Positions 23,173 through 37,281 of a stretch of DNA of 64,000 nt are shown here, one piece after another. Below the pieces are notes generated by a model. The model was not told the DNA's origin. It was given only the letters and a program-made list of their open reading frames with translations, and did not search any database. Positions within the stretch are counted from its first letter, which is position 1. Each line of letters opens with the position of its first letter. Source of the stretch: a virus; IMG/VR virus record IMGVR_UViG_3300023109_000021, positions 1-64,000 of that record, one strand, 5' to 3'. Both the position numbers and the translations under genes were made by a program.

Positions 23173-25131
23173 TTAAAATAGATTTAGTTGATTAGGAACT
23201 ACAGTGTTCTTCTTACGCTTGCCTTTTGTAAGAATTTTTACAATCATGCTCTCCGCTTGGTCTATGTAGTATTTATAGTTTATATTATCTATTGGAGAAT
23301 CTTTCTCCAGATAATTGCAAACATGACACACCCACTCACCAGCTTCCACCTGACTTCTCTTAGCAGCTTTACTATCAGAGTCATGGTTCTTTACCTTGTA
23401 AACTTTCTCACCAACCTTAGCCACATAATATCTAATCAATTTGTTATACTTCGTTTTAACATTAGTTACTTTATTGATTCCCTCGTAGTGGAAATCTCTA
23501 GATGCTTTCTTCCTGATACAGAAATCATACAAATTCTTATGATTCATAATGGTATCTTTAACAGGAGTACCGTGCACATAGTACTGCTCAAGAGCAATGG
23601 GAACTATCCTACCTGACTTGTTCTTATGAAGCTCAAAGTCTGTAAGAAAGTCCCCCTTTTTCTTGACATAACCATCAGGCATGATGGCTAGGTAGTCATT
23701 AACAGTGGAAAACAAGATCTTTGTATAGTCTGTACGTTCTAGTACATACTGTGTGGTCTTACACCACCAGTCATTGATCTCATGCATCTTGGGAATCAAG
23801 TCTTTTCTCACTTTAACTGTTACACCGTCTGTGTTGGCAGAGATAATCTTGATATCATTGAGCTCATACTTCTCAATAAGCATCATTAAGCTAAACTCAC
23901 CAGTTATAGTGGTGAACATAGTTAACTGCCTATCATATATCCATGAGTTCATGTCAGATGATTTACCATACACAGAATTGACTGCAAGCTTAAGCGCTCC
24001 TACAATTCCCTTAATCCTCCTGTCACCCTTAGCTTGTGGTTTAAGCTCTAGTCGTTTCTCAAACATACGTTTGTATCCATTCAAGAACTCTTTACCCAGG
24101 TGAGCAGGATATTTCTCATTGTTAATTATTATAGCAGGATAGTAGCTAGCTACATCCCAATCTATAATCTCATGATCTTCATCTTCTTCAAACACCTCTG
24201 GTTTGTTTTCTGTATGAAGACCACCTTTCATAAAAGAATACACATTATCATAGAAATGTACATGCTCTTTAAAGTTATCCATAAGGCCTAGCTTACGCTT
24301 CTTGACACTGCTTAACAGGTCCTGTAGCTGCTTGGTCTCAAACTTAACATAATGAGCAATACAGTTCTTCATATTGATACTCTTTCTAAAATATCCCTTA
24401 CGTGGAAGCTCACGTATATCTATACCCTTTTCTTGACAGTAATACTTCTTGATGATCTCGTCACCAATCTTACTATCAGAGTAATTAAGACAGCTTATAC
24501 CAAACTCTTCTTCTATATCTCTACGAAGCTGCACTTGGTTGTTACCCTTATATAAAGGGTGCTCTGTCTCTCCTATTGTAATCTTGTAGAACTCATAGGT
24601 TGCATCAACATCATTAAAACAATACTGCAATGACAAGAATACTTCATCCTTAGTCATGTTTGTCTTAGTGTGATGTATAGGCATCTCCTCTATGTTCTCA
24701 AGATCCATTTCAAACTCTAACCTCTTCAGGCTAACACGTCTGTTCTTATTATCATAGTGGTGTATCTTAAATAGGTCCATTTGCTTTAGAGAAAGCTCGT
24801 GCTCTCTATACTCTGCAAACACATCATAGTTAGCATCATGTATAACATCCTGAGCCTTCTGTGCAATCTTAGCACATATCTCTAGTCCTGTACAATCATG
24901 CCACTGCTCATAGTTTCTAAGTATCCACTCAACAACTTGACTATCAAAGCGTAGATTATTATAACCTACCCAATATAAGTTCTTATTGTCTTCAGTGTAC
25001 TTAACAAATGCATCCAGCTGATTCTGCCACTTACTAACTGTAAAGCTCTTAGGTGTGTCCTCAGGCTTCATACATACAACTATAAAGCATTCCTGCATAG
25101 TTTCTATGTCATAAATAATTACATCACTCAT
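23173..25131 (-). CDS. Family B DNA polymerase with 3'-5' exonuclease
   Basis: 652 residues. Exonuclease motifs: YDIET (Asp8/Glu10), YNNLRFDS (Asp63) and YCFND (Tyr170/Asp174). Polymerase motifs: A DVASYYPAII (326-335), B KLAVNSVYGK (381-390) and C SANTDGV (431-437), where the usual DTD is NTD with the essential second Asp kept. The size and the KGGLH segment suggest the compact phage PolB type seen in many crAss-like phages. The C-terminus ends in NQLNLF, a good match to the beta-clamp binding peptide, implying use of the host sliding clamp for processivity. It replicates the phage genome with the helicase and primase of this operon. Confidence 0.9.
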   Translation of the reverse strand: MSDVIIYDIETMQECFIVVCMKPEDTPKSFTVSKWQNQLDAFVKYTEDNKNLYWVGYNNLRFDSQVVEWILRNYEQWHDCTGLEICAKIAQKAQDVIHDANYDVFAEYREHELSLKQMDLFKIHHYDNKNRRVSLKRLEFEMDLENIEEMPIHHTKTNMTKDEVFLSLQYCFNDVDATYEFYKITIGETEHPLYKGNNQVQLRRDIEEEFGISCLNYSDSKIGDEIIKKYYCQEKGIDIRELPRKGYFRKSINMKNCIAHYVKFETKQLQDLLSSVKKRKLGLMDNFKEHVHFYDNVYSFMKGGLHTENKPEVFEEDEDHEIIDWDVASYYPAIIINNEKYPAHLGKEFLNGYKRMFEKRLELKPQAKGDRRIKGIVGALKLAVNSVYGKSSDMNSWIYDRQLTMFTTITGEFSLMMLIEKYELNDIKIISANTDGVTVKVRKDLIPKMHEINDWWCKTTQYVLERTDYTKILFSTVNDYLAIMPDGYVKKKGDFLTDFELHKNKSGRIVPIALEQYYVHGTPVKDTIMNHKNLYDFCIRKKASRDFHYEGINKVTNVKTKYNKLIRYYVAKVGEKVYKVKNHDSDSKAAKRSQVEAGEWVCHVCNYLEKDSPIDNINYKYYIDQAESMIVKILTKGKRKKNTVVPNQLNLF

Positions 25132-28669: not shown

Positions 28670-28831
28670 TTTGTATTTATTAATGGTTTAACTTATTTAT
28701 TCTTTAGTCTATAGCAATCATTCAGGTTTTAACGCATAACCTTATTCCCCTGATTCTTTACTCACTCAACCAATTGTTATGGTATCTACCCTTGTTTTAC
28801 AAGTGAGGTTATCTCTGCTTTTAGACTTTAT
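28670..28831. other. Intergenic region with inverted repeats
   Basis: 162 bases without an open frame. Inverted repeats are visible: ATAACCT (28736-28742) with AGGTTAT (28806-28812), and inside it CTTGT/ACAAG (28791-28795 / 28799-28803). On the minus strand it would be transcribed between two small genes. No TAnnTTTG element is seen on either strand. Confidence 0.4.
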
Positions 28832-29088: not shown

Positions 29089-29117
29089 TATGATGCTCTC
29101 CAGCTTTAACTTATTAA
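29089..29117 (-). repeat. Leader repeat, copy 1
   Basis: On the minus strand this reads TTAATAAGTTAAAGCTGGAGAGCATCATA in front of the ATG at 29077. A similar sequence (copy 2 at 29348-29387) precedes the neighbouring gene at nearly the same distance from its ATG. It may be a shared promoter or RNA element. Confidence 0.5.
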
Positions 29118-29347
29118 CTATAATCTTTCTGACTTGTTAGAATACCAGCAGCCTCCCAAAACAATATTTTAGTCTCAGGATTACTTACTGGTCTTAGTAT
29201 ATCAAGCTGTTGAGCTAAATTTATACTAAATGGTATAAGACTTAACATGAAAGTCTCATATATTTCATTATCTAATTGCTCTAATAGTTTAGGACTATTA
29301 ATAGCTCTTGTAGCTAAACTAATAGCTTTATCTTTTAAATTTGACAT
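29114..29347 (-). CDS. Hypothetical protein, 77 residues
   Basis: The start at 29347 (MSNLKDKAISLATRAINS) is preferred over one five codons upstream because it aligns with the start of 28832-29077 when their repeated leaders are aligned. The protein is helical with a hydrophobic middle (YETFMLSLIPFSINLAQQLDIL). It could associate with membranes weakly. No family recognised. Confidence 0.55.
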   Translation of the reverse strand: MSNLKDKAISLATRAINSPKLLEQLDNEIYETFMLSLIPFSINLAQQLDILRPVSNPETKILFWEAAGILTSQKDYS

Positions 29348-29387
29348 GATATAATAGTACAATGCTCTACAGCGTTAAGTTATTAAA
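29348..29387 (-). repeat. Leader repeat, copy 2
   Basis: Minus strand reads TAATAACTTAACGCTGTAGAGCATTGTACT followed by the gene start. It matches copy 1 at most positions from TAATAA through AGAGCAT and TACT. Confidence 0.5.
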
Positions 29388-29389
29388 TA

Positions 29390-29515
29390 TATACTTGCAC
29401 CAACCACTTAAGGTTTACATGTCCTACCTTGTAGGTCCACAGTCTGTTTTTTGGCTATGTTAACTAAACAGCAAGTCTAAGTTGATCAACACTTATTTTG
29501 CCCAGTGCAAGTATA
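29390..29515. ncRNA. Candidate structured RNA closed by an 11-bp stem
   Basis: TATACTTGCAC (29390-29400) and GTGCAAGTATA (29505-29515) are perfectly complementary and 104 bases apart; with one gap, pairing extends about five more pairs outward into TTAAAT/ATTTAA. Inside are CCTAC-CTT-GTAGG (29423-29435), CTGTTT/AAACAG (29444-29449 with 29466-29471) and the palindrome GTTGATCAAC. This gives a multibranched fold with three inner hairpins. The strand is not settled and no promoter was identified, so this is a candidate only. Confidence 0.45.
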
Positions 29516-29565
29516 ATTTAAGTATTTAGAGCTCCCTAACTTAATATAAGCATAGAGAGAAAGTT

Positions 29566-29604
29566 AAAAAAAAAGCCAGTCTATTTTATCCAACTTCAAC
29601 TGGC
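29566..29604 (-). terminator. Intrinsic terminator, minus strand
   Basis: GCCAGT (minus strand from 29604) pairs with ACTGGC (29580-29575), with an 18-base loop, followed by nine T residues (29574-29566). It would stop leftward transcripts that pass 29977, leaving a long 3' region of about 370 nt. Confidence 0.7.
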
Positions 29605-29936
29605 ATGGTTGTCCTATGAATACTCATAGTTAGGAATAAGTCATTTGATTATCAGGTGAGACCAACACCTACCAACATACTCATTGGTTGATTAGACACT
29701 ATAGGTAATTAACCTATTTCACTTCATGTGTGTCACACTAGTCTAGAATTACTTAGACACGTATCTTTGTAGCATGTTAATGCTATATTTATTTAGTATG
29801 CAACAGTGAATGTTACAGCTGTCAAAAAGTGTTGAAATGTGCTGTATGTGAACACGTACAAGTTATCACACACACAAAACACTTACGTTTTATGGTTTTT
29901 AAAGGCCCAACCCTATAATCCCACCCTGTATATAAA

Positions 29937-29958
29937 GGAGAGAGCTGTTACACTCTCC
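29937..29958 (-). terminator. Weak terminator-like hairpin after 29977-30396
   Basis: GGAGAG/CTCTCC six-pair stem with a ten-base loop, 19 bases after the stop codon, followed on the minus strand by TTTAT only. The T-tract is poor, so it may mark the 3' end of an abundant message or act as a stability hairpin. Confidence 0.4.
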
Positions 29959-29976
29959 CCTTTTGAGGGTTGTTGC

Positions 29977-30396
29977 TTAGAAAGCAACCAACTCGTCCAA
30001 CTTAATTGTTGGTGCTACAAACTCTTGTGCTTCATCTTCCGTGATGGCAAAGTCTTCCACTTGAGTTCCACCAGGTAATGACACAAAGTTTCCTGTCACT
30101 ACTTTAGTTTCCCCTGTGTTTTCATCGATTGCATCCCAAGATGTTTCAAGTATTGGAAACCCTTGAACTTGTGAAAGGGTGATTTCTTGGTCACGCATTC
30201 CACGACTAACTGCTTTTGAACAAGCAACTACTGCGCTCATTCCGTCAGCACGCTTAACTACAAGAGCAACACGCTTTGTGTGGTCTTTGAAGTTCTTGTC
30301 AATTAATGTAATTGCTCCGCCCTTACCTGCGTTGCTTGCTACTGTACCTAATGTTTTTAGGTTTTCTCTCTGGTAATCTTTAAATTGTAATCCCAT
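29977..30396 (-). CDS. Hypothetical protein, first gene of the leftward block, 139 residues
   Basis: The ATG at 30396 (MGLQFKDYQREN) is preferred; upstream codons to 30447 run into a GGGGG-CTA-CCCCC hairpin. The protein has RVALVVKRADGMSAVVACSKAVSRGM and an acidic Glu/Asp-rich second half ending in KLDELVAF. No known family. Base composition is visibly more GC-rich than most neighbours, and being nearest the divergent control region with hairpins on both flanks suggests early, high-level expression. It may be a DNA-binding or host take-over protein, but no motif shows this. Confidence 0.65.
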   Translation of the reverse strand: MGLQFKDYQRENLKTLGTVASNAGKGGAITLIDKNFKDHTKRVALVVKRADGMSAVVACSKAVSRGMRDQEITLSQVQGFPILETSWDAIDENTGETKVVTGNFVSLPGGTQVEDFAITEDEAQEFVAPTIKLDELVAF

Positions 30397-30431
30397 CTTG
30401 TTTCTGTTTTTTAATGGATTATTGTGAAGAA

Positions 30432-30447: not shown

Positions 30448-30752
30448 TCGTCAATTTTTGTTTGGGGTATTCAATTGGTAGGGGTCTCCTATCTTACACA
30501 CACGGTGGGGTGGGGCGTTTTTAAAAAAAAGTTTTAAGAAAATTTGGTTGGCATAGTAAAAATGATTTACCTTTGGTGGGTGGGTGGGCTATTAGTTATT
30601 ATTATTATTTTCTTCTTTTACATGTTCCTAATAAGGATAACTTAATCATACAAGTATACATAATATAGCATTGAAATATACCATATGTTGTGTATATAGA
30701 TTTTTATTGTATATTTGTGATTATATGATATGTAATTATATATAACTAAATC
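30448..30752. other. Divergent control region between the two gene blocks
   Basis: About 300 bases without a gene. It contains two G-rich runs on the plus strand: GGTGGGGTGGGG (30504-30515) and GGTGGGTGGGTGGG (30575-30588), the latter with four G-runs separated by single T residues, an eight-A tract (30523-30530), TTATTATTATTATTATTTT (30596-30613) and, at its right end, a consensus promoter. This is the place where the leftward and rightward units diverge and a plausible replication origin. Confidence 0.55.
30688..30717 (+). promoter_or_regulatory. Bacteroidota-type promoter of the rightward block
   Basis: TTG at 30688-30690, 19-base spacer, TATATTTG at 30710-30717, a perfect TAnnTTTG. The first plus-strand ATG (30753) is 35 bases further on, giving a leader of roughly 28 nt. 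Confidence 0.8.
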
Positions 30753-32371: not shown

Positions 32372-32675
32372 TGCAGAGCTTGATTGGGCAGAGCAGCAGT
32401 TAATCTCTTGGAAAGAGTACGTTGATGCTAACCCCTTACATAAGCTTGACGATAGAGTAAAATACAAAGAAACTTCTAACGGTGGTCAAATACCAATGGT
32501 TGTTGCAAGTATAGAATCTCAAGGAAAATTTGTACAAGATACAATGAAAAACTACTTGTCTCTCTTAGAACAAGTTGATAAACTTCGTGAAAAAGAAGCA
32601 AAGAAGAAGATAGAAACTAGAGGTGGCCAAGAACTAGGTAGTATGGCTGAAGAGTTTATCAAGAGTAGAAAATAA
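32346..32675 (+). CDS. Small helical protein before TerL, possible small terminase
   Basis: 109 residues, mostly helical with a coiled-coil-like stretch (YLSLLEQVDKLREKEAKKKIET). Its stop overlaps the TerL ATG by one base (TAATG), the position usually taken by the small terminase subunit, which recognises the packaging site as a ring. It lacks a clear N-terminal HTH, so the assignment is positional. Confidence 0.4.
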   Translation: MIKKTTYINAELDWAEQQLISWKEYVDANPLHKLDDRVKYKETSNGGQIPMVVASIESQGKFVQDTMKNYLSLLEQVDKLREKEAKKKIETRGGQELGSMAEEFIKSRK

Positions 32676-34696
32676 TGGAGATAAAAAGTGTAGACTACAA
32701 AGATTGGATGATTAATCAGAAGAGAATTCCTGATAAGGAGTCTGATGAATACAAAGCATTCTTTGACTACCATAAAGATTTGTGTATGAATGGGTGCATG
32801 ATGGACGGTACATACATAAATCCATTCCTATATTGGCACTTAAATGCCTGGCATACAGAAGTTGATATCATAGATGAGTATGGTAGAATTAATCAGAAGT
32901 ATGCTAATCCACTACTTAGAGATAATGAATGGTTAGTAACTAATGAAATAGATAGAGCACATAAAGAAAAGAAAGGACTAATAATACTAGGAATTAGACG
33001 TTTTGCTAAGTCTGTTATAGAAGCAAGTTACATTGCTCAAGGTGCAACCTTTGATGAGAACTCTCAAAACATTATAGCAGGACTAAATGCTCCTGATATT
33101 AAGTTAATTACAGATAAGATTGACAAAGGTTTAAACTTCTTACCTAAAGCTTGGAGATGGCAAAGAGTAGAAGACAACTGGAAAAATCAAGTAACGTTAG
33201 GTATTAAAACTAGAGGTGGTGAAAGAATACCGTTTTCACAAATCCTTATACGTAACTTAGATGATGGTAACAACGAAGAAGCAATTGCAGGTACTAAGCC
33301 TAGAAGATTAATTATTGATGAGATAGGTAAAGGTAATTTTCTAAGAGGATTACAAGCAGCCATACCTGGATTTACAACACCATTTGGTTGGGGTTGTAGC
33401 CCCATATTGACAGGGACAGGTGGAGACATGAAGAAGTTTATGGATGCAAAGTCTTTAATGTTTGACGTAGAAAACTTTAATTTTCTTACGTACAATAATT
33501 CAAAAGATGATAAGCGTATTCATGGATTATTTATTGGTCATGAATATAGAATGGAGGCTAAAGAAGATAGTTCACTTGGAGCGTTTTTAAACAAGTCAAA
33601 AAAATCATCTTTGCAAAAGATACCAATGATGGTGTCTAATAAGGAAAAGGCTGATAAGGTTACTAACGATAACTTAGAAAGATTAAAAAAGGCTGGAGAT
33701 AGATTAGCTTACTTAAAAGAAAAGATGTATTATCCACAAGAGGTGGATGATATCTTTTTAAATGAGGATACAAATATATTTGACATTAGTTCAGCTAAGC
33801 GTCAAAAAAATAGATTATTAGAAAATGATAAAACAGGTACGCCTGTTATATTATATGATGATGGTGAAGGTGTAAAGCACGAGTTTACAGATAAAATGCC
33901 AATATCTAACTTTCCACTAAAAGCAACGGATTTAAAAGATGCTCCTGTAGTTATATATGAGTTTCCTGTAGAAAATCCACCTTATGGCCTATATGTTGCA
34001 GGTATTGACCCTTACAGACAAGGTAAATCAGCATATAGCTCATCATTAGGATCTGTATACATATATAAGCGTATGCATGCTATATCTGGTGATAAGTACC
34101 AAGATATGTTTGTAGCTAGCTATTGTGCTAGACCAGAGAAGAAAGAAACATGGGAAAACCAAGCTCGTTATCTAATTAAGTACTTTAATGCAAGAGCGCT
34201 GTGTGAAAATGATGAAATCTCTTTTATAGATCATATGATTAGTAAAGGAGATGCTCAATATTTAGAAAGACAACCTAGTTGGCTAAAAGAAATAGTTCCT
34301 ACTACAACTGTAAGAAGGGATTATGGAATACACAGATCATCAGAAAAGATTAGAGACTTTTTACATGGGTGTCTTAAAAAATACTCAGAAGAAATTATAC
34401 ATTCTGAGACTGATGATGATGGAGAAGTTGTATCTCAAACAAAAGGTATGGCTAAAATATTAGATCCATTACTGTTAGAAGAAATGATACAGTACAATGA
34501 GTCTGGTAACTTTGATAGAATTATTGCAGCTGAGTTAGCCGTTGCGCTAGCTATGAAGCTTGACCCTATTCTAGGAAAAGTAGGAAGCAAAGAAGATGTT
34601 AGGTTAACATCTATGTTTAACAAGAACAAAAAAAACAAGCTATTTACAGAGTCAAGAGGGCTCTTTAATAGAAAGAAAAACAAACTTTTTTCATAA
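32675..34696 (+). CDS. terL: Terminase large subunit
   Basis: 673 residues. The ATPase domain has a deviant Walker A GIRRFAKS (106-113, Ala where Gly is usual), Walker B LIIDEIG (212-218) and the coupling motif TGTGGD. The C-terminal nuclease begins with YVAGIDPYRQGKS (first acidic residue), with ALCENDEIS as the second acidic site. It pumps the genome into the capsid through the portal and cuts it. Order TerL-portal-scaffold-capsid is the tailed phage norm. Its stop overlaps the portal ATG. Confidence 0.93.
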   Translation: MEIKSVDYKDWMINQKRIPDKESDEYKAFFDYHKDLCMNGCMMDGTYINPFLYWHLNAWHTEVDIIDEYGRINQKYANPLLRDNEWLVTNEIDRAHKEKKGLIILGIRRFAKSVIEASYIAQGATFDENSQNIIAGLNAPDIKLITDKIDKGLNFLPKAWRWQRVEDNWKNQVTLGIKTRGGERIPFSQILIRNLDDGNNEEAIAGTKPRRLIIDEIGKGNFLRGLQAAIPGFTTPFGWGCSPILTGTGGDMKKFMDAKSLMFDVENFNFLTYNNSKDDKRIHGLFIGHEYRMEAKEDSSLGAFLNKSKKSSLQKIPMMVSNKEKADKVTNDNLERLKKAGDRLAYLKEKMYYPQEVDDIFLNEDTNIFDISSAKRQKNRLLENDKTGTPVILYDDGEGVKHEFTDKMPISNFPLKATDLKDAPVVIYEFPVENPPYGLYVAGIDPYRQGKSAYSSSLGSVYIYKRMHAISGDKYQDMFVASYCARPEKKETWENQARYLIKYFNARALCENDEISFIDHMISKGDAQYLERQPSWLKEIVPTTTVRRDYGIHRSSEKIRDFLHGCLKKYSEEIIHSETDDDGEVVSQTKGMAKILDPLLLEEMIQYNESGNFDRIIAAELAVALAMKLDPILGKVGSKEDVRLTSMFNKNKKNKLFTESRGLFNRKKNKLFS

Positions 34697-37281
34697 TGGC
34701 AATTATAAGATATACAAAAGAAGAAAACATTAGGTATGCTTACCTGAACATCTTTCCTGATCAGTTTAAAAGTGCAAAACAAAAGCAAGATGATAGTTGG
34801 GTTAAGAATACTATGGATTACTTCTCAAACAAATCATATGCTGAGTATATAAAGAACAGAGAAACATTTGTAAAGAATTATGACCTGATGAAAGGTATAT
34901 TAAGAAGAGAAGACTTCATGATAGACCAACCAGACGTAAAAAGTTTTACAGACATGTTACAAGAAGATTTAGATCTTCCTTCTTATGTAAAGCACTACTC
35001 AATAATGACAACACCTATTAATGAATTAGTAGGAGAGATTTCTAAAAGACCAGATTCATTTAGAGTTAAAGCTTTTGATGATGATAGTCAAGCTCAGGAG
35101 TTACAGTTTAAAACAGATACGTTACAAGCTTATGTAATATCTCAAGTTAAAGAGCAAGTAGCTGCAAAAGCTGCTATATCTGGACAAGAGTTAAATCAAG
35201 AAGATCTTGAAAAGATAACATTTGAACAAGTTCAAGATCAATTAGATTCTTACACTTCAGTAGCTGAAAAATGGGCTAATCACACACTTACATGTCAAAA
35301 GGCAGACTTTAATTTAAAAGAGAAGAGTGAAGATGCATTTAGAGACTTACTAATTTCAGCAAGAGAGTTCTATCATATATATGAGGATAATTCAAAAGTG
35401 GGATATAATGTAGAAGTAGCAAATCCAAAGAATACTTGGTTTTTAACTACACCAGATAAAAAATACATCTCTGATCCATCAGGTAGAAACCAAGGAGCCT
35501 ATGCTGCTGGTACTGTGGAAGTTATGGAGATTTCAGAAATAATAGAAGCATTTCCAGATTTACAAAAAGATGAAATAGATCATCTAAGAAGCTCATTGCA
35601 AGACTATGGACTTATAAACGTAAGAGAATCTAATCTAGGTAATGCAGATGTTACTCCTGGTATAGACTCAATTAATTATGATACGTATGATCCACTAGTG
35701 TTACAAACACGTATGATTCTCGAATCAGAAATGAAGGAAAACAATGATGGATTACAAGATTTCTTAGGTCTTACAAGTAATGTGTCTTCATTTGGATATA
35801 AGTATGTTGTTGTAAGAAGCTATTGGATATCTAAAAAGAAAATAGGTAAACTAGTATACACTGATGAATTAGGTAATGAACAATCAACACTTGTAGATGA
35901 ATCTTACAAGTCAGGAGATATGCCTACACAGTTATCTTTAGAGTGGGGATGGATTAACCAATGGTATCAAGGAATTAAAATTGGACCAGACATTTATCAT
36001 GTTAAACCTTATAATCTTTTAGACTACTGTCCAATTATAGGTACTACTTATGAAGTAAAGAACACAGAGGCACGATCTCTAGTAGATCTAATGAAACCCT
36101 TCCAAGTTATTTATAACGTCTGCATGAACCAGTTATATAAGCTTCTTGAAAAAGAAGTTGGTAAGGTTCAATTAATGTCACTCAGACATATACCAGTTCC
36201 TAAAGATGGTGATGCTCAAGATGCATTAGATATATGGGAAATGGAAGCAAGAGAACGTGGTGTTGTATTTATAGATGATAGCCCAGAGAACTTAAAATCT
36301 CCAAGCTCATTTAATCAGTTTACATCTTTAGATCTTACACGTACACAGGAAATACAATCTCGTTATACATTAGCTCAGCAAATGAAGGTGGAATGTTGGG
36401 AACTTATAGGTATGTCTAAACAACGTATGGGATCAATAGCTGCATCAGAAACAGCTACAGGTACAAATACTGCTATGCAACAGAGTTACTCTCAGACAGA
36501 GCCTTTATTTATTGCACACGAGTATGTATTAGGACAATTATATCAAGGTATCATCGATGCATCATTATACACAGAAAGCACAAAGCCTCAATCTACATTA
36601 TCGTATATAACTAATGAAGGAGAGTCTGCATTTGTACAAGTAAATGGAACAGAGTTAAAGCTTAGAGATTTAAAAGTATTCTTAACTAATAGACCAGAAG
36701 ACACTCAAATGTTTAATGAGCTTAGACAATTATCTCAAGCTATTATACAAAACGGTGGCACATTATATGATGTAATTGAATTGTACAGTACTAAATCAAT
36801 GAGAGAAATGAAAAAGACTTTCAAAGATCTTAGAGATAGACAAGTTCAACAACAAGAACAACAACAACAATTACAGCAGCAACAACAAGAACAAGCTGGT
36901 CAAATTGCACAAGCTCAAATGCAACAAACACAACAATTGGCTGCAGCAGAGCAAGCAAATGATAATTATCAAAATGAACTAGATCGTGTCAATAAAAAAG
37001 AAATTGCAATGATAAATGCAATGTCTAAAGAAGGTGGAGCGTCTGCTGATGTAGATAATTCAGGAACACCAGATGCATTAGAGATAGAAAACTTAGCGTT
37101 GCAACAAACAAAAGCTACAAAAGATTATGATGCTAAGATGGCAGACATAAACTCTAAGAATAGTTTAGCTCAGCAAAAGTTACAGATTGAAAGAGAAAAG
37201 ATTAAACTAGCTCGTGACAATCAAGCAAACGATCTAGCTGTTGCTAAAATGAATGCAAAAGGTAGAGATAAGAAAAACTAA
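34696..37281 (+). CDS. Portal protein
   Basis: 861 residues, positioned straight after TerL. Typical portal features are a large alpha/beta body (WGWINQWYQGIKIGPDIYHVKPY, PFQVIYNVCMNQLYKLLEKEVG) and the helical ETATGTNTAMQQSYSQTEPLF stretch seen in crAss-like portals. The last 150 residues are a Gln-rich coiled coil (for example QQQEQQQQLQQQQQEQ) suited to the barrel inside the capsid. The dodecameric ring forms the genome entry vertex. Confidence 0.88.
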   Translation: MAIIRYTKEENIRYAYLNIFPDQFKSAKQKQDDSWVKNTMDYFSNKSYAEYIKNRETFVKNYDLMKGILRREDFMIDQPDVKSFTDMLQEDLDLPSYVKHYSIMTTPINELVGEISKRPDSFRVKAFDDDSQAQELQFKTDTLQAYVISQVKEQVAAKAAISGQELNQEDLEKITFEQVQDQLDSYTSVAEKWANHTLTCQKADFNLKEKSEDAFRDLLISAREFYHIYEDNSKVGYNVEVANPKNTWFLTTPDKKYISDPSGRNQGAYAAGTVEVMEISEIIEAFPDLQKDEIDHLRSSLQDYGLINVRESNLGNADVTPGIDSINYDTYDPLVLQTRMILESEMKENNDGLQDFLGLTSNVSSFGYKYVVVRSYWISKKKIGKLVYTDELGNEQSTLVDESYKSGDMPTQLSLEWGWINQWYQGIKIGPDIYHVKPYNLLDYCPIIGTTYEVKNTEARSLVDLMKPFQVIYNVCMNQLYKLLEKEVGKVQLMSLRHIPVPKDGDAQDALDIWEMEARERGVVFIDDSPENLKSPSSFNQFTSLDLTRTQEIQSRYTLAQQMKVECWELIGMSKQRMGSIAASETATGTNTAMQQSYSQTEPLFIAHEYVLGQLYQGIIDASLYTESTKPQSTLSYITNEGESAFVQVNGTELKLRDLKVFLTNRPEDTQMFNELRQLSQAIIQNGGTLYDVIELYSTKSMREMKKTFKDLRDRQVQQQEQQQQLQQQQQEQAGQIAQAQMQQTQQLAAAEQANDNYQNELDRVNKKEIAMINAMSKEGGASADVDNSGTPDALEIENLALQQTKATKDYDAKMADINSKNSLAQQKLQIEREKIKLARDNQANDLAVAKMNAKGRDKKN

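Follow-up and report, generated by a model that had tools for sequence, protein, structure and literature searches.

A candidate structured RNA module, exchangeable between phages, in an operon leader of a crAss-like phage

What does a long-range inverted repeat in a non-coding gap of a phage operon stand for: a structured RNA, a DNA signal, or chance pairing? This question was raised by a 64,000-nt stretch of DNA (positions 1 to 64,000 of IMG/VR record IMGVR_UViG_3300023109_000021; hereafter the window), which is part of a 70.8-kb virus record. A perfect 11-bp inverted repeat (TATACTTGCAC and GTGCAAGTATA, with 104 nt between the arms) lies in a gap of about 614-630 nt (29348-29976) inside a minus-strand operon. 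The preliminary description had placed this repeat in a gene-free gap, and we confirmed both the repeat and the lack of any plausible gene within 29348-29976. In an inverted-repeat search, the arms reached outward to 20 nt at 80%.

PHROG matches in the window include a terminase (32675-34693, plus strand), a portal protein (34696-37278, plus strand), and a DNA polymerase (23176-25131, minus strand). The nearest terminases in GenBank were those of Leptolyngbya phage Lbo-JY46 (39%) and of Cellulophaga phages phi17:2 and phi4:1 (30%), together with those of gut crAss-like phages. Based on these matches and this kinship, the source is a crAss-like phage belonging to an uncultivated, apparently environmental group. 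GenBank phages gave no meaningful match, whether searched with DNA or with the protein encoded just upstream of the gap. The small ORF downstream of the gap had no PHROG match, and no tRNA or tmRNA was found in the window. Two further signals were noted around the gap. On the minus strand, at about 29890-29965, a hairpin lies past the stop codon of the gene upstream and precedes TATA(TA)nAGGGTGGG ... AGGGTTGGGCC. This sequence is conserved even in distant relatives while its surroundings vary, and it could be a phage promoter or some different signal at the DNA level. On the plus strand, the G-rich runs GGTGGGGTGGGGCG and GGTGGGTGGGTGGGC (30500-30600), upstream of the plus-strand operon, could be a promoter or a quadruplex-forming signal.

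The repeat had initially been judged unlikely to arise by chance, a judgment that the window sequence by itself does not bear out. Indeed, among 5000 dinucleotide shuffles of the gap, 202 (4%) contained an equal repeat (11 bp, loop of 40-200 nt), as did 90 of 5000 when at least four G/C were required. The whole window held five such repeats of any G/C content, versus 5.25 expected in shuffles. Taken alone, the inverted repeat is weak evidence, and it is comparison with relatives that rescues it.

We aligned the site in the window with that of seven relatives, which revealed two fixed blocks and a variable insert (Table 1). The upstream block (42 nt), of which GTDB genomes contained no copy, is predicted to form a hairpin at about 29533-29558 that includes a minus-strand G-U pair; the variant block of L016 could still form this hairpin. 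The downstream block has the consensus GCTG[N]AGAGC[A/C]TTGTACTA. In four relatives (L012, L013, L022, and L058), the two blocks are directly joined and the element is absent, which may reflect simple dispensability. Between the blocks, the window and L005 carry the element, and L004 and L009 carry unrelated sequences. Beyond these eight genomes, L015 carries a different insert with a long closing stem followed by a second block of the upstream type, and L007 carries what reads as a small ORF. The absence of the element from close relatives, at an otherwise conserved site, speaks against an essential signal for packaging or replication, one of the roles first proposed for it.

Table 1 Features of the leader site and its neighboring genes in the window
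Feature	Position	Strand	Remark
Gene upstream of the gap, conserved	29977-30405	-	
Conserved upstream block AACTTTCTCTCTATGCTTATATTAAGTTAGGGAGCTCTAAA	29525..29566	-	Near-identical in 8 aligned genomes
Outer clamp (predicted), 5' side GCUCUA	29527..29532	-	Pairs with 29364-29369 in the whole-leader fold
Exchangeable element (cassette): A/T-rich linkers, closing stem, predicted branched interior	29378..29524	-	Absent or replaced in relatives
5' arm of the 11-bp closing stem	29505..29515	-	Compensatory changes in L005
3' arm of the 11-bp closing stem	29390..29400	-	Compensatory changes in L005
Outer clamp (predicted), 3' side UAGAGC	29364..29369	-	Whole-leader fold
Conserved downstream leader block AACTTAACGCTG[N]AGAGCATTGTACTA	29355..29381	-	Alignment; ends about 7 nt before the start codon
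Downstream small ORF (MSNLKDKA...)	29114..29347	-	Homologue with empty leader in L022

When the entire leader of the window is folded, GCUCUA and UAGAGC are predicted to pair as a clamp whose loop contains the element. Pairing of GCUCU with AGAGC is also possible at the empty sites; in L009, the upstream side of the clamp is off consensus, yet its new sequence is predicted to pair with the downstream side. Folding and sequence together thus suggest a leader clamp. A second insert of about 200 nt (29567-29765, minus strand), ending in GCCAGT...ACTGGC-TTTTTTTTT, adjoins the upstream block in the window and is missing at that spot in L004 and L005; a copy about 83% identical occurs in L015 (1458-1662), about 3 kb from the leader site of that phage.

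The alignment also separates the element from the gene that follows it. The window and L022 share a downstream gene, preceded by the element in the window and by an empty leader in L022. Another gene is common to L005 (filled) and L012 (empty), and a third to L009 (filled) and L013 (empty), such that every filled site except that of L004 is matched by an empty one upstream of the gene in question. Conversely, the homologous element of the window and L005 stands before two different genes. As for the downstream block, related phages have it in front of a wide range of small ORFs, where its 5' context is a terminator-like hairpin, another gene, or other structured stretches. Judging from these comparisons, the element is not tied to one gene. 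Regulation of the specific downstream gene, one form that a regulatory RNA could have taken here, is disfavored, as the presence or absence of the element is independent of that gene.

Among the relatives, L005 holds a homologous element at the same place, and its closing stem is kept by compensatory change. Of the 15 pairs compared between the two sequences, two changed in a compensatory manner (A-U to G-C and C-G to U-A) and none was broken. If two changed positions were placed at random in each 11-bp arm, we calculate that they would match about once in 55 cases, and complementary letters at these positions would be rarer still. It should be noted that this covariation amounts to two changed pairs, since the module is known in two sequences, and that an inverted repeat maintained as DNA would show covariation too. 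TGTTTAGTTAA occurs in both interiors, as does a small hairpin of the CCTA type. A covariance model built from the window and L005 gave no other match when run on loci totaling about 3 Mb and on 50 whole records, and a pattern scan with the interior string GTTTAGTTAA..AAAAACA returned loci without a model match, except L166, which is on the same contig as L005.

The element is about 147 bp long and encodes no protein of at least 40 aa. On the minus strand, its predicted closing stem comprises 15-17 pairs with one bulge. Compared with shuffled sequences, the minus-strand core folded with a z-score of -2.4, and with the flanking A/T arms the score was -3.6, with 0 of 200 shuffles as good. The plus-strand core folded similarly (z -2.6), and therefore the strand is not chosen by folding alone. 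The element very probably folds as a branched RNA, as had been proposed. Of the three further hairpins that the preliminary description had placed inside the stem, CCTAC-AAG-GTAGG recurs in L005 with a one-base shift, while the remaining interior is predicted to fold differently there; a helix common to both interiors would form only at an energy cost and is not adopted. Because the two interiors are predicted to fold differently, we make no claim on the inner hairpins.

A search of Rfam 15 at gathering and relaxed thresholds, covering the window and its relatives, returned nothing for this element. The suggestion of a new phage RNA family therefore holds narrowly, insofar as the element lacks an Rfam match; such a family has two known members. 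The compensatory changes in the closing stem of L005 and the conserved-leader setting support a structured phage RNA.

Long-range stems of this kind form a class in related phages. A perfect stem of 11 bp or more with 40-200 nt enclosed was present in 18 of 397 intergenic segments of related loci, some of which are mutual homologues, versus 0.8 in shuffles; with near-duplicates removed, the count was 7 of 170 versus 0.3. In a strand test, G-U and A-C were found next to stems 9 and 6 times, respectively, which is uninformative and does not favor the operon strand. Cassettes are also reused elsewhere: one closed by ACTTTTGT occurs with different neighbors in L298 and L300, and the shell CATCCAATTGCAGGTG...CAAGGATTGCAACC encloses one interior in L009 and L013 and a different one in L014, with one of its interiors reappearing within another shell in L027 and L030.

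Other recurrent non-coding motifs were observed in the same phages. One of them is built on the invariant core CAACGCTGCAGGAGAGCA, often preceded by ACTAACAATCnTGGnTTCTAGATAA, whereas its outer stems and inner hairpin vary; it is intergenic in L027, L023, L041, L043, L009, L012, L004, L033, L013, L014, and L100, has no Rfam match in the loci scanned, and looks like a real, unlisted RNA family. At about 28700-28800 of the window (minus strand), CTCACTTGTAAAACAAGGGTAGATACC...GGTTGAGTGAG...CAGGGGAATAAGGTTATGCGTTAAAACCTGAATG is nearly identical to intergenic stretches of L009, L012, L013, L015, and L093. Finally, an element of about 74 nt closed by ATTCTCAGT.../...ACTGAGAAT, mostly with an inner CTTTCTACGAGGAGCGTAATAAC, is intergenic in L020, L028, L034, L038, L048, and L064; the loop-side end of its stem differs between L020 and L038 with complementarity kept.

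The covariation with L005, the site alignment, the independence from the downstream gene, the enrichment of stems, and the reuse of cassettes elsewhere lead us to propose, with about an even chance of being right, that the element is a cis-acting RNA module, structured and exchangeable, within a leader that separates two cistrons in the minus-strand operon of a crAss-like phage. The other inserts vary in predicted fold energy (z -3.0 in L015, -1.4 to -2.2 in L004, and -0.4 to -1.4 in L009), which counts against this proposal. We infer that the leader is transcribed and that the fixed upstream hairpin block and the fixed block before the start codon would pair as a short clamp (GCUCU/AGAGC), with the module in the clamp loop, closed by its own stem of 11-17 bp. 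From phage to phage, modules would come, go, or give way to others whatever gene lies downstream; recombination at joints that are short and conserved, or A/T-rich, is the most likely route. The element would most likely act as RNA on its own transcript, not as a gene-specific sensor, and as a compact domain it could influence how stable the transcript is, how it is processed, or how ribosomes reach the start codon that follows.

An alternative that we regard as unlikely, although it deserves some weight, is that the module acts in trans as a small RNA in its own right, either excised from the operon transcript or independently transcribed, for which the leader is only a landing site. The element is compact, closed, and unlinked to the downstream gene, the site accepts unrelated modules as well, and cassettes with their own closing stems lie at other intergenic places. 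However, the sequence contains no terminator directly after the element, no separate promoter was identified, and the element lies inside the predicted clamp, a few nucleotides before the start codon. That same position, immediately 5' of a start codon on the transcribed strand, is what a riboswitch-like cis-regulator of the specific downstream gene would occupy. Such a regulator is highly improbable here, since L022 has this gene behind an empty leader and L005 has the module in front of another gene; there is no match to an Rfam family and no consistent association with one gene family, and the indifference of the element to its downstream gene argues against a riboswitch.

The clean empty and filled sites, the end-to-end inverted repeats, and the patchy distribution would also suit a miniature transposable element or a recombination site, in which the inverted repeat would matter as DNA and have no role as RNA. 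We consider this quite unlikely. The inserts of L004, L009, and L015 have unrelated stems and thus offer no common end for one enzyme, and the common terminal repeats of a miniature inverted-repeat transposable element are absent; no target-site duplication was seen between filled and empty sites, which have only a short TAAA in common at the joint. Unrelated ends at one site and the lack of target duplication argue against one transposable element, as does the copy number: one in the 70.8-kb record and, among 49 related records, only that of L005. In addition, the conserved upstream hairpin needs a minus-strand G-U pair, which points to RNA for the leader. As for a chance repeat in A/T-rich filler DNA, the shuffled gaps and the lack of excess over the whole window are what it would predict, but the stem preserved by compensatory change in L005 and the enrichment of the class in related phages make it very improbable.

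The nearest published idea known to us is that of the mobile promoter/stem-loop cassettes (PeSLs) of T4-type phages, reportedly described by Arbiol et al. 2010. These are said to be short intergenic stem-loop modules shuffled among related phages, beside small accessory genes. The element resembles them as an intergenic stem-loop module that some close relatives have, others lack, and others replace at a single site. It differs in its large, branched predicted fold, which would lie within the loop closed by a conserved leader clamp, in its occurrence in crAss-like phages, and in the variety of unrelated modules at one site; PeSLs also carry an early promoter.

Candidate structured RNAs have also been drawn from human-microbiome sequence in a metagenome survey (PMC8040213), the main text of which does not mention crAss. 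As with those candidates, a structured RNA is predicted in or near phages of Bacteroidetes, whereas the present element is defined by replacement at one site. Some crAss-like phages carry group I introns and inteins, which interrupt genes and are recognized by endonuclease or splicing domains (PMC7886860). These are likewise mobile sequences infiltrating crAss-like phage genomes, but the element described here is intergenic, about 147 bp long, and codes for no protein of at least 40 aa.

A broader reading, which is possible but doubtful, is that this environmental crAss-like group has dedicated leader sites hosting many unrelated, self-contained structured RNAs, which together form a shared mobile non-coding pool that parallels the set of small accessory genes found there; the modules of this pool could possibly act in trans, for example against host defense. 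The non-coding regions of this phage group have been little studied, as far as we could find. If the proposal of an exchangeable module is true, these phages swap non-coding RNA domains at fixed leader sites as they do small accessory genes, and the same gene with and without a module would offer a simple comparative handle on the roles of phage intergenic RNA.
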